From Phycisphaerae bacterium (GTDB lineage Bacteria > Planctomycetota > Phycisphaerae > Tepidisphaerales > Tepidisphaeraceae): a stretch of 10,016 bases of DNA. Location of the stretch: NCBI GenBank assembly GCA_014380825.1, contig JACMJD010000097.1:1-10016 (forward strand). Direction: 5' to 3'. This document shows, piece after piece, positions 2,901 through 7,720 of this stretch (position 1 is its first letter; every line of letters begins with the position of its first letter). The notes beneath the pieces were generated by a model that saw only the letters and a program-made list of their open reading frames with translations, was not told the origin of the DNA and ran no database searches. A program made the position numbers and the translations under genes.

Positions 2901-3238
2901 TGTCTTCGTCCTTCCCTGTTGTTCGTCGCATGCTGAAACAAACTCATGCGTTCGAACGAGTGAAACTATCGTCCACGTTCGGCCGGTCGACCAGTGCCCG
3001 AAACAGGCCAGCCTCTGATCGCCATGCGTACTACATCTATGCGAATAAAGCCGGCGGGATGGACAAAACATTCCCGTGCCCTGAACGGGGCAATGAGCGG
3101 AACTGCGGAATGATGAATGCAGAGTGCAGAATGGATAAGCGGGGTAAGATGTTTCTTTCATTCTGCATTCCGCATTCTGCATTCTGACTTCACTTTTCAT
3201 TGCGTTCCACGCCGTCCCTGCGGACAATTGACCGTCTA
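2901..3238. other. Gene-free stretch upstream of the LuxR-type regulator, holding a heptamer inverted repeat
   Basis: No credible coding frame is seen. Frames that run through here contain translated repeat sequence and lack coding bias. The main content is the inverted repeat element at 3107-3187. The remaining 53 bp before the regulator start (3186-3238) show no confident sigma-70 promoter. A short arm pair TGCCC...GGGCA near 3076-3092 is the only other structure noted. Confidence 0.5.
3107..3187. repeat. Palindromic element built of AGAATGC heptamers, upstream of the LuxR-type gene
   Basis: The left arm (3107-3135) reads as units GGAATGA-TGAATGC-AGAGTGC-AGAATGG. The right arm, read on the minus strand from 3185, is AGAATGC-AGAATGC-GGAATGC-AGAATGA. 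The arms match at 23 of 29 positions when paired as an inverted repeat, with a spacer of 21 bp between them. The end of the spacer holds GATGTTTCTT (3148-3157), which also occurs in the spacer of the element inside mqnC. The element could form a long cruciform or RNA hairpin. There is no transposase and no obvious target duplication. Confidence 0.75.
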
Positions 3239-4048
3239 ATGACTGATCGTGGCGAACACCTCCGGCTGGGTGCGGTGCGGGATGTCTTTCGGCTCGTCGG
3301 CGAAATCCGCGAGCAGGGCGCTGATCCATCGAAGTGGCGGCCGCACATGGTGCGGCGCATCAGCAAGATGATGAACGCCGAGATCGTCGTCTCCAGCGAG
3401 ATCCACTTCCGCGCCGCCGGCGAGGGCGGCGTGTATCACGTACACGACATCGGCTGGGGCTGCGACCAGGACGGCAACACCTGGCAGATCAACACCGAAC
3501 GCGAGGAGAAACCCGAAGCGTACTGGCTGACCGTGCTCGGAAAAAACACGCCGGTTCCTCAAAGGAAGCCGACGGACGAATCCGAATCATCGGACAAGCC
3601 CGTCATTGCCGTGACACCCGTTCGCGCGGTGTATGGCGGAACGAGCTTCGTCCTCTCGCAATATCCGCTGCCACATCTGGGCGCCGTCGATCAGCTTGGC
3701 CTGCACCGCGCCTGGGGAAATCAGCCGTTCACTCGACCCGAGCACCGCCTGATCCGCCTGTTCCACCTCGAGCTTGGCCGGCTGTGGAAAAAAGACGCGC
3801 TGCAAAAAGCGCAAGACCCGGCATCCGCACTTCCGCCAAGACTCGCGCAAACGCTCGCCGAGCTCCAGGCCGGCAGCAGCGAGAAGCAAGTCTCGATCGC
3901 GCTGGGCATCAGCCGCCACACGGTTCACAATTATGTGAAAGCGCTGCATCGAAGACTGGGCGTGAGCAGTCGCGGCGAATTGCTGGCCAAATCTCGCGCG
4001 AGCGCCAGCGGGGATTTCACGCCGAAGCTGAGCGTTCCGCGCGAATAA
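3239..4048 (+). CDS. LuxR-type transcriptional regulator with C-terminal helix-turn-helix
   Basis: Predicted cytoplasmic DNA-binding regulator of 269 residues. The C-terminal part (about 198-252) is a GerE/LuxR-type helix-turn-helix: LPPRLAQTLAELQAGSSEKQ, then VSIALGISRHTVHNYVKALHRRLGVSSRGELLA, with the recognition helix around SRHTVHNYVKALHRRL. The N-terminal part (LRLGAVRDVFRLVGEIREQG...WRPHMVRRISKMMNAEIVVSSE) has a sensor-like layout that I recall from planctomycetal LuxR proteins; its ligand is unknown. No receiver-type phospho-acceptor pocket is evident, so it is not an ordinary two-component response regulator. I chose the ATG at 3239; a TTG at 3200 would extend it into poorly conserved sequence, and the ribosome binding site is weak. 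katE follows 134 bp downstream on the same strand, so the regulator may act on or be co-expressed with it, but no operator was identified. Confidence 0.82.
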   Translation: MTDRGEHLRLGAVRDVFRLVGEIREQGADPSKWRPHMVRRISKMMNAEIVVSSEIHFRAAGEGGVYHVHDIGWGCDQDGNTWQINTEREEKPEAYWLTVLGKNTPVPQRKPTDESESSDKPVIAVTPVRAVYGGTSFVLSQYPLPHLGAVDQLGLHRAWGNQPFTRPEHRLIRLFHLELGRLWKKDALQKAQDPASALPPRLAQTLAELQAGSSEKQVSIALGISRHTVHNYVKALHRRLGVSSRGELLAKSRASASGDFTPKLSVPRE

Positions 4049-6301: not shown

Positions 6302-7720
6302 TCAGTTATTGCCGAGAATCGGCAACTGAACGGAAACATTCCGATCCGCACCATCGTCCAAGCCCGGCGCGGCGCCGATGAATTGCTTGTCGATGCGCTT
6401 CACAGCGCGGATCGGCGGATGCGGATCGGGGAGCAGGTCGGGGGAATTGGGGCCGTCGTGGCGTTTCAGGATGTTGTAGTACTGATCTCGCTGGGCGGGG
6501 ATCCAGCCGGCGTCGCGGATCAGGCGGCAGATTTCCCGCTCGTTCAGCTTGTACGTCGTGCCGGCGGCGCTGACGACGTTCTCTTCCATCATCACGCTGC
6601 CCATGTCGTTCGCCCCGAACGTCATCGCGAGCTGGCCGATCTTCGGGCCCATCGTCACCCAGCTGGATTGGAGCGACGGGAAGTTGTCGAGATAAATTCG
6701 AGCGATGGCCAGCGTGCGGAGATAATCATCCGCGCCGGCGCTTCGAACGATGCGACCTTTCTGGATGTCCTCGAGCGTCGAATCGTCGAACTGCCCGTGA
6801 ACGGTCGGATCCCATTCGGTCGCGTGGCCCAGCGACGTGTTCTCGCGCTGGAACGGCCAGTGGATGAAAGCGGTGTAGGAGCCGTAGGTGGTGAGTGGCC
6901 AGTGGTCAGCGGCCAGTGAAGACTTGGTAAAGACTCCGGGATGTTTCTTCTCTATTTCACTGACCACTGACCGCTGACCACTGGCCACTGATGCCGCGTA
7001 GTCCTGCATATCCCGCAACGCGCTCATATGCTCGACGCGATCGCGGAGAAATTCGATATGCCCGATCAGCATCGTCGCGCTGGTGTTCAATCCTTCTTCA
7101 TGTGCGACGCGCATGACGCGCAGCCATTCGTCGCCCGTGCATTTGCCGATGCCGATTTTCTTGCGGACGCGGGGCGTGAAGATTTCTCCGCCGCCGCCGG
7201 GGATCGTCGCTAATCCTGCTGCCTTGAATCTTCGGATGATGTCGCGCACATCCATCTTGAAGAAGCGCTCGAACTCGATGAACTCCGGCGGGCTGAAGGC
7301 GTGGATGTGGATCGTCGGGAAACTCGTCTTGATGTAGCGCAGCAGGTCTTCGTACCACTCGATCGGGAGCGCATCGTTCATGCCGCCTTGCATGAGAATT
7401 TGCGTTCCGCCGATCGCGATCAGCTCGCGAATCTTCTCGCCGATCGTCTCATAGCTCAGCGTGTAGCTGTCGGCGTCGTCGTGGTCGCGACGGAAGGCGC
7501 AGAACGTGCAATGGGCGGTGCAGACGTTTGTATAGTTGATGTTCCGATCGATGACGTAGGTTCGGTAATCTTGCGGGTGCATTCGATCGACGACCGTTTG
7601 CGCCCACGTGCCAAGATCGTGGAGCGATGCGCGCTGGTAAAGCTCGAGCGCTTGCGCGTCGCTAAGCCGCGAACGGCCTTGTAAGATCGGATCGATGTCG
7701 AAGGACAGCATTTTCGGCAT
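6302..7720 (-). CDS. mqnC: Cyclic dehypoxanthine futalosine synthase (radical SAM), carrying an in-frame repeat insertion
   Basis: Radical SAM enzyme of the futalosine pathway, cyclising dehypoxanthine futalosine on the way to menaquinone. The 4Fe-4S motif is C67-x3-C71-x2-C74 in NINYTNVCTAHCTFCAF. Further MqnC hallmarks are GGTQILMQGG (104-113), HIHAFSPPEFIEF (138-150), PGGGGEIFTPRVRKKI, TSATMLIGHIE, YTAFIHWPFQRENT (282-294), SSWVTMGPKIGQLA, and MMEENVVSAAGT (377-388). The nearest alternative, aminofutalosine synthase MqnE, fits less well. Residues about 242-279 (ASVASGQRSVVSE...SSLAADHWPLTTY) have no counterpart in the family as I recall it, and are translated from the heptamer inverted repeat at 6894-6989. 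The frame is kept and all catalytic motifs remain. The C-terminal tail after 420 is also longer than typical. The start at 7720 has a weak ribosome binding site; an ATG at 7711 is an alternative. Confidence 0.93.
   Translation of the reverse strand: MPKMLSFDIDPILQGRSRLSDAQALELYQRASLHDLGTWAQTVVDRMHPQDYRTYVIDRNINYTNVCTAHCTFCAFRRDHDDADSYTLSYETIGEKIRELIAIGGTQILMQGGMNDALPIEWYEDLLRYIKTSFPTIHIHAFSPPEFIEFERFFKMDVRDIIRRFKAAGLATIPGGGGEIFTPRVRKKIGIGKCTGDEWLRVMRVAHEEGLNTSATMLIGHIEFLRDRVEHMSALRDMQDYAASVASGQRSVVSEIEKKHPGVFTKSSLAADHWPLTTYGSYTAFIHWPFQRENTSLGHATEWDPTVHGQFDDSTLEDIQKGRIVRSAGADDYLRTLAIARIYLDNFPSLQSSWVTMGPKIGQLAMTFGANDMGSVMMEENVVSAAGTTYKLNEREICRLIRDAGWIPAQRDQYYNILKRHDGPNSPDLLPDPHPPIRAVKRIDKQFIGAAPGLDDGADRNVSVQLPILGNN
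6309..6325. terminator. Hairpin at the katE-mqnC junction (weak bidirectional terminator candidate)
   Basis: TTGCCGA (6309-6315) and TCGGCAA (6319-6325) form a perfect 7-bp stem with a 3-nt loop, 8 bp past the katE stop and inside the last codons of mqnC. Neither side has a proper T-run. Its position between converging genes suggests transcript ending or 3'-end protection, but this is tentative. Confidence 0.35.
6894..6989. repeat. Palindromic element built of AGTGGYC heptamers, inside mqnC
   Basis: The left arm reads AGTGGCC-AGTGGTC-AGCGGCC-AGTGAAG from 6894. The right arm, read on the minus strand from 6989, is AGTGGCC-AGTGGTC-AGCGGTC-AGTGGTC-AGTGAAA. The outer 25 bp of the arms (6894-6918 and 6965-6989) pair with one mismatch, 19 bp of them perfectly. 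The spacer is lower in GC than the gene and holds GATGTTTCTT (6940-6949), shared with the spacer of the 3107-3187 element. Translation through it is open in the mqnC frame. Confidence 0.88.

Follow-up and report, generated by a model that had tools for sequence, protein, structure and literature searches.

Palindromes of seven- and eight-nucleotide words in a variable loop of MqnC and at other sites in the genomes of a planctomycete family

Results

The mqnC gene and its palindromic element

The window, by which we mean the whole stretch of DNA analysed here (10,016 nucleotides from a Phycisphaerae bacterium of the Tepidisphaeraceae, contig JACMJD010000097.1), carries an mqnC gene on its minus strand with a palindromic element inside the coding sequence, and a second palindromic element elsewhere. 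The features are as follows.

7720-6302, minus strand: mqnC, cyclic dehypoxanthinyl futalosine synthase, 472 aa, intact frame
6881..7003, minus strand: family-specific variable loop of MqnC, D240 to G280 (residues 240-280), from the homologue alignment
6965..6989, minus strand: 5' arm (mRNA sense) of period-7 words, about residues 244-252, from the inverted repeat and the array
6919..6964, minus strand: 46-nt hairpin loop, including the HPGVFTKS codons (residues 260-267, 6920-6943)
6894..6918, minus strand: 3' arm (mRNA sense), reverse complement of the 5' arm, about residues 268-276
3108..3186: second palindromic heptamer element (GAATGCA/CATTCTG words, 25-nt loop), a short way upstream of the 3200-4048 frame

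The NCBIfam model TIGR03699 matched the window protein above its cut-off (437.5 versus 428.1 bits), and Radical_SAM and CofH_C domains were found in it. The closest solved relative by sequence is MqnE (6xi9), whose alignment breaks off near the start of the loop and resumes after it. From the order of elements in the barrel fold, the loop would be expected to follow a helix and precede a strand, facing away from the active site.

The tightest arms of the inverted repeat (6894-6918/6965-6989) are 25 nt long, 96% complementary and 46 nt apart, and the whole element (6894-6989) measures 96 bp; a longer pair of arms (6888-6920/6956-6988, 33 nt) is 82% complementary. Period-7 arrays were detected at 6894-6918 and 6958-6991. 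Folded as single-stranded DNA, positions 6880-7000 gave -30.8 kcal/mol compared to -16.0 ± 2.75 kcal/mol for shuffles (z -5.4), with 0 of 200 shuffles as good, and the ungapped inverted-repeat score of the loop was also reached by 0 of 200 base shuffles. A sequence-only reading of this DNA had proposed an inverted repeat of 7-bp units within mqnC, which the arms, the period-7 arrays and the fold confirm. Its 7-bp unit stands, but its single consensus AGTGGYC does not, since the word varies within the element (AGTGGYC/AGYGGYC). The frame is open through the element, as that reading had stated: the loop region holds no stop in the frame used and two in each of the other sense frames. At W274 in the 3' arm, the codon is TGG where the plain word would put an in-frame TGA. 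The element had also been said to add ~38 residues; it is indeed translated in frame, but 39 residues lie between D240 and G280 and the net excess over loop-less sister lineages is ~32.

Several other features of the window were noted. The frame at 3200-4048 matches LuxR-type regulators weakly, and the minus-strand frame at 1313-2302 encodes a type 2 thioredoxin-like (seleno)protein of the VPGUxxT family (NF041383, above its cut-off). A degenerate one-armed heptamer-like array of AATGACC-like words was seen by eye between genes at 310-375, and a perfect 14-bp (twice seven) tandem duplication of CCCATCGAAGGGCA lies at 2508-2535. That the loops of both window elements might have AGAAACATC in common was considered, with other copies compared by eye, and dropped.

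The MqnC loop across the family and beyond

We aligned the best 120 of 7994 scored homologues. In 119 of them, RDMQDY and YTAFIHWPF are separated by a long loop, which is made up of a conserved core (RWPGVFAKS as consensus) with a variable stretch on either side. A one-off or recent insertion of 38 residues in the window gene is contradicted by this count, and because HPGVFTKS (H260-S267) belongs to the family-conserved core, the segment from D240 to G280 is not one new insertion. The comparison with relatives works in two directions: an equally long loop is common, which by the terms of the sequence-only reading itself counts against an insertion, but many of these loops are themselves palindromes. 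As their words differ from that of the window, the MqnC loop appears as a site of recurrent turnover, and the initial interpretation is in this sense partly supported.

The one exception, the protein P0106, has lost the whole loop and is 94.6% identical to P0060. At the same place, 18 sister loci (L016-L034 without L021; ~58-62% identical) have a linker of ~12 residues. Distant loci (L035-L080) mostly have short linkers, and several have long inserts of their own (for example L061, L073, L070 and L077), which indicates that the site is tolerant beyond the family. In one distant Phycisphaerae MqnC (L072), the insert at this site is shorter, and its peptide resembles the 8-nt word repeat (ERRSDEATKRR). 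Within the family, L098, L100 and L101 have the loop and the core without a palindrome, and L100 and L101 are the members most divergent by identity. We considered these three as the deepest, palindrome-free branches and rejected the idea, since L014 and L010, which carry words, were placed nearer the base of a weakly supported tree.

An mqnC gene was found in 22 of the 26 family genomes, most of which are metagenome bins; some may be mixed, and mqnC lies on two contigs in G001. The 24 mqnC match rows were free of internal stops, and MqnA/MqnD-type proteins (PF02621) were found in all 26 genomes. Taken together, these observations fit menaquinone synthesis by the futalosine route with a functional MqnC in the family.

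Many words in one architecture

The DNA of 24 distinct mqnC loci was read, with the window included and L102/L104, which are one gene with an N gap (G025), counted once. The loop DNA of ten contained a significant inverted repeat (0 of 100 base shuffles each). These palindromes are made of 7-nt words in seven loci (L001, L002, L004, L010, L021, L102 with its N gap, and the window) and of 8-nt words in two (L005 and L008), and L086 has a plain, non-repeat palindrome on one side only. The words differ between loci (ATTGCCG, CGGGTAT, AGGACTG, GAAGCGAC 8-mers, GAAGGAT, GTCCGTT and AGTGGTC), and eight mqnC heptamer or octamer elements span 93-151 bp. In the other 14 loci, no palindrome was significant in the loop by the base-shuffle test; in one of these, L014, the arrays on either side are made of different words. 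Judged by these loci, the two arms are not always installed together.

For proteins without available DNA, we scored the complementarity of arm 1 with arm 2 after back-translation under any codon choice. Among the best 120 of 7994 homologues, 111 could be parsed and nine could not. The mean complementarity between arms was 9.09 within proteins compared to 5.40 between proteins, and the highest mean in 5000 permutations (6.13) was below the observed value. The arms of 52 of the 111 proteins scored above the 95th percentile of between-protein pairs, and those of 23 above the 99th. Thus, the two arms co-vary. Two proteins, P0100 and P0113, carry in the same permissive loop what look like translations of non-heptamer palindromes (GFQPV/GLQPV type).

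Turnover between near-identical enzymes

A FastTree phylogeny was built from 145 MqnC rows with the loop removed; 51 of its 142 inner branches were weakly supported. Word classes were taken from the pattern and amended manually in six rows (L005, L008, P0092, P0001, P0113 and P0003). On this tree, the 88 word-bearing rows required at least 56 word changes as a raw count. There were 31 pairs of rows with at least 93% identity when the loop is left out; in 19 the states differed and in 12 they agreed, where states include 'none' and 'no loop' and the pairs are not independent. The clearest cases were two pairs of enzymes differing by a few residues outside the loop. L004 and P0085 are 98.6% identical over 436 aa; their six differences all lie more than 20 residues from the loop, yet their arms are built of AGGACTG and TGGCAAC, respectively. 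L001 and P0107 are 98.4% identical and also carry different words; four of their seven differences lie 21-28 residues past the loop. Within each of these two pairs, the loops have little in common beyond the core.

A dispersed class of elements

The survey for period-7/8 arrays covered the mqnC loci of the family, flanks included, and parts of G001, G008 and G010, and dispersed copies of individual words were counted in the genomes of the window's relatives. The survey yielded 58 arrays, 46 of them in the 1.48 Mb of G001, G008 and G010 stretches. An inverted partner was present within 200 nt for 30 of the 58, and for 28 there was none at the threshold used. Controls taken at 3-4.5 kb matched the inverted-partner score for one of the 58 arrays (three had no control in reach), and direct partners matched it for three.

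Each genome contains many words. The AGGACTG pattern matched 56 times in G004, 11 times in G026 and 9 times in G021 (overlapping matches counted) and had no match in the other 23 family genomes, compared to one match for the reversed control. The window word, with up to two mismatches, gave 37 matches (overlapping counted) in nine of the 26 genomes versus two for its control. A 29-nt arm of the AAGGATG word, GAAGGATGAAGGNNGAAGGATGAAGGATG, had 32 matches (overlapping counted) in seven of 298 class genomes, versus none for its control. In these matches, the two variable positions read CG in 14 of 32 and plain AT in 13 of 32; the CG variant was found in five of the seven genomes with matches, both inside and outside long frames. 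The mqnC and aminotransferase arms of G004 have AGGACTGAGGACTGAGGACTCAG in common.

The arms have a polarity. In 23 of 25 arm pairs, the 5' arm held more G than C, and for three words, 32 adjacent pairs faced each other, none stood back to back and four were on the same strand. The hairpin loops of the elements are mostly unrelated between copies, which makes the element unlike a simple transposing unit. Four AGGACTG elements of G004/G026 (L256, L264, L310 and L324) have, by eye, a CTGAAAGTCGATGCGCC-like loop sequence in common and could possibly be copies of a unit.

By eye, several intergenic copies lie directly after a stop codon. In one element (L128:5616-5705), also close after a stop codon, the heptamer arms surround a perfect 11-bp terminator-like hairpin. 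Nested palindromes were seen at L170:5315-5493, L182:13241-13369 and L021:2255-2379, with different outer and inner words in L170 and L182. We rejected nested hairpin growth as a general rule: among 51 elements looked at, 43 had loops of at least 16 nt, and a further inverted repeat was present at the 5% level in two of these (L128, where it is the terminator-like one, and L182).

In-frame copies in other genes

We read 35 distinct AGGACTG places in G004 and identified genes by NCBIfam, Pfam or alignment; here and in the other genomes, several of the gene matches fell below the NCBIfam cut-off (among them gcvP, rarA, purL and the YaeI-like protein), and some frames were cut by the ends of the stretches. 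Ten of the 35 places are in frame within identified genes: gcvP, murJ, pyrK, recJ, an aminotransferase, carB (twice), rarA, an M19 dipeptidase and mqnC. Both orientations of the word reached the threshold in 14 of the 35. Four of the ten in-frame places (mqnC, aminotransferase, rarA and dipeptidase) have both arms, and the rest have one perfect array. In-frame hosts were also found in G026 (purL, uvrA and an aminotransferase), G021 (lnt and a YaeI-like phosphodiesterase), G017 (a MiaB-like protein) and G001 (putA and an aminotransferase). Three more in-frame arrays were seen, a paired one in a cytochrome c protein and unpaired ones in an AAA_25 protein and in a ribonucleotide reductase.

Eight long frames read the AGGACTG array in sense, and all eight have the in-frame stop removed, which is partly true by construction, as frames with a stop would be unlisted. 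The change that removes the stop is TCA in seven of the eight; two TCA arrays lie outside long frames (L265 and L305). This repeated choice of one change suggests that some AGGACTG elements form a readable subfamily.

Recurrent use of one loop was also seen in two of these hosts. In the aminotransferase, the loop contains a palindrome in six of 25 genomes (three of AGGACTG, one of AAGGATG, one of another repeat and one plain); in the other 19, there was no palindrome and the loop was shorter (35-51 residues between the same landmarks). In rarA, palindromes were found in three of 24 readable genomes, all three different and one starting with GTAG, and a further case was weak (1 of 100 shuffles). 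Reuse of a single loop is, therefore, not peculiar to mqnC, which gives the strongest case found. Non-heptamer palindromes occupy these permissive loops in L199 (aminotransferase) and L349 (rarA, with a GTAG start like a REP).

Discussion

Overwriting of the MqnC loop and its alternatives

We consider it probable that the window has captured a single state of an insertion site that changes fast, where dispersed palindromic elements repeatedly overwrite both sides of the MqnC loop. The MqnC of this Tepidisphaeraceae-like planctomycete family would have a lineage-specific loop of ~40 residues that tolerates change, and the elements would be hairpins with arms of 3-5 copies of a 7- or 8-nt word, G-rich in the 5' arm and C-rich in the 3' arm. 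Only in-frame, stop-free versions would survive, because the gene is needed and unreadable versions of the loop would be lost. The element would then be translated as a presumably inert peptide around the conserved core. The same elements would enter other permissive loops of housekeeping genes, with most copies outside genes, and the copies would come from elsewhere, by movement as elements or by arm copying, and not have originated locally. As conservation is seen in the arms and not in the loops, a process that copies arms at hairpins is possible.

The closest competitor, which we nevertheless think unlikely, is that mqnC loops are shuffled between species by homologous recombination, so that the differences reflect gene flow and not new insertion. 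This would agree with the retention of the core when the arms change, with the residues beside the core also differing between L004 and P0085, and with the position of four of the seven L001/P0107 differences just downstream of the loop (21-28 residues past it). However, the flanks of L004 and P0085 are identical up to 20 residues from the loop, and identity to the window protein is mostly 75-80% for the other homologues among the best 120 of 7994. The word of the G004 mqnC also occurs at dozens of other places in that genome, and two unrelated genes, for the aminotransferase and RarA, show the same pattern.

Slightly more doubtful is an origin by local slippage, in which the 7-bp units arose in place and their pairing came from template switching, with no dispersed element. 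Unit number does vary, and heptamer repeats are described as common in bacteria in the available parts of two reports (PMC4692102, PMC4679880). The mostly unrelated loops of different copies and the 28 of 58 arrays without an inverted partner would also be expected. Slippage does not readily explain exact 28-29-nt arms with the same odd interior changes at many places (GAAGGATGAAGGNNGAAGGATGAAGGATG, CG in 14 of 32), the AGGACTGAGGACTGAGGACTCAG common to two genes of G004, or the polarity of the arms (23 of 25 pairs; 32 facing versus none back to back).

It is improbable that an RNA or DNA hairpin is selected for in mqnC, for translational pausing or transcript control, with words changing by compensation. 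The co-variation of arms across proteins fits such a hairpin, but 14 of 24 mqnC loci have no significant palindrome, P0106 has no loop at 94.6% identity to P0060, such hairpins also occur in unrelated genes and outside genes, and the window gave no Rfam match. Finally, removal of the element by splicing or ribosome skipping, so that it is never in the protein, is very improbable: the hairpin does sit in a coding gene and skipped elements exist elsewhere, but none of the 24 family match rows has an internal stop, the eight sense AGGACTG frames avoid the in-frame stop (partly by construction), and the core residues are conserved as protein.

With overwriting by dispersed palindromes as the preferred reading, a wider proposal can be made tentatively. 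The elements may be a hitherto undescribed, self-spreading class of hairpins defined by architecture and not by sequence, which is copied through its arms, lands in fixed permissive loops of essential proteins and includes stop-free subfamilies pre-adapted to translation. If this is true, the complementary arms would consist of 7- or 8-nt words in tandem, the 5' arm would be G-rich and the loop free, with no transposase identified. Y1 transposase (Y1_Tnp) matches were present in all 26 family genomes. An origin as RAYT-mobilized REPs was examined and rejected: in 20 stretches around Y1 genes (7 genomes, 67 kb), arrays were found in two, which is about the background of 46 in 1.48 Mb.

Relation to known palindromic sequences

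The comparisons that follow rely on the portions of the cited papers available to us. Rickettsia palindromic elements (RPEs) are described as hairpins of ~100-150 bp found between genes and in frame in conserved genes, where they are translated as an extra peptide; Gmk with such a peptide kept its activity, with altered substrate affinity (PMC2229807). The likeness drawn by the sequence-only reading, a palindrome read in frame inside a conserved enzyme, was confirmed. The stem-loops here have a similar size (96 bp in the window, 93-151 bp for the eight mqnC elements), and they too occur both between genes and, in frame, within several conserved genes that are unrelated to one another (G004, G001, G017, G021 and G026). 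Taking RPEs as they are described, the present elements differ in having arms of tandem 7- or 8-nt words of many sequences and mostly variable loops, and in their G-rich/C-rich arm polarity, the reuse of the same protein loop across species and their planctomycete host. They form one recognizable sequence family within a word but not across words. The heptamer and octamer palindromes work in the manner of RPEs.

GTAG- and CGTC-tagged REPs are small palindromes that lie close to the ends of genes and in some cases within them, many of these genes serving DNA synthesis or repair; different REPs occupy about the same recB site in two Xanthomonas species, and REP families are known in Opitutus, of the same superphylum (PMC3733652, in the part available). 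The elements described here resemble them in being small palindromes near gene ends and inside genes with reused sites. We found GTAG at 14 and CGTC at 2 of the 64 ends of 32 elements, compared to 7 and 10 of 128 control ends; the enrichment of GTAG arises in part because AGTAG is a variant of a word. In contrast to tagged REPs, the elements lack both GTAG and CGTC at most of their ends, their arms are tandem words, and the Y1 (RAYT) genes looked at were not flanked by arrays above background.

Palindromic stems of replaceable short words also have a precedent. In the P6b region of the Nostoc trnL intron, the stem always consists of complementary 7-nt repeats whose motifs are replaced while the structure stays similar, according to the accessible part of PMC4476775. 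Complementary 7-nt stems occur likewise in the window and in six other mqnC loci, with 8-nt words in L005 and L008. The Nostoc case, as presented there, concerns a non-coding group I intron with two motif classes, whereas the stems here are coding and use more than a dozen words. No Rfam family matched in the window, where the element sits in the mqnC coding sequence. In Nematomorpha mitochondria, inverted repeats lie inside protein-coding genes and the protein is read through; in the available text both arms encode conserved residues, whereas here they encode the variable part (PMC6649704). PARCELs are likewise dyad-symmetric coding repeats and are thought to move between genomes, but they are presented, in what was available of that paper, as 25-residue tandem repeats in ORFs without assigned function, many of them membrane-targeted (PMC2996958); the hairpins here lie inside housekeeping enzymes.

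Among the literature matches listed, mostly from outside subscription journals, there was no earlier report of heptamer palindromes in planctomycete genes, and we found no literature report of an MqnC insertion in planctomycetes. In-frame palindromic insertion and replaceable heptanucleotide stems are already known; the present case combines them, and what is added is the diversity of words, the polarity and the recurrent landing loops.

Implications

These observations extend in-frame palindromic insertion from the lineages in the cited papers to a planctomycete family. They also call for caution with metagenome proteins, in which such loops are translated repeats and not functional domains, and should not be used for phylogeny. 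That enzymes more than 98% identical carry different inserts suggests a fast and ongoing process. The family would offer a natural experiment on three questions: which places in proteins accept insertions, how hairpins can spread while their sequence changes, and whether selfish DNA can become translatable through evolution.
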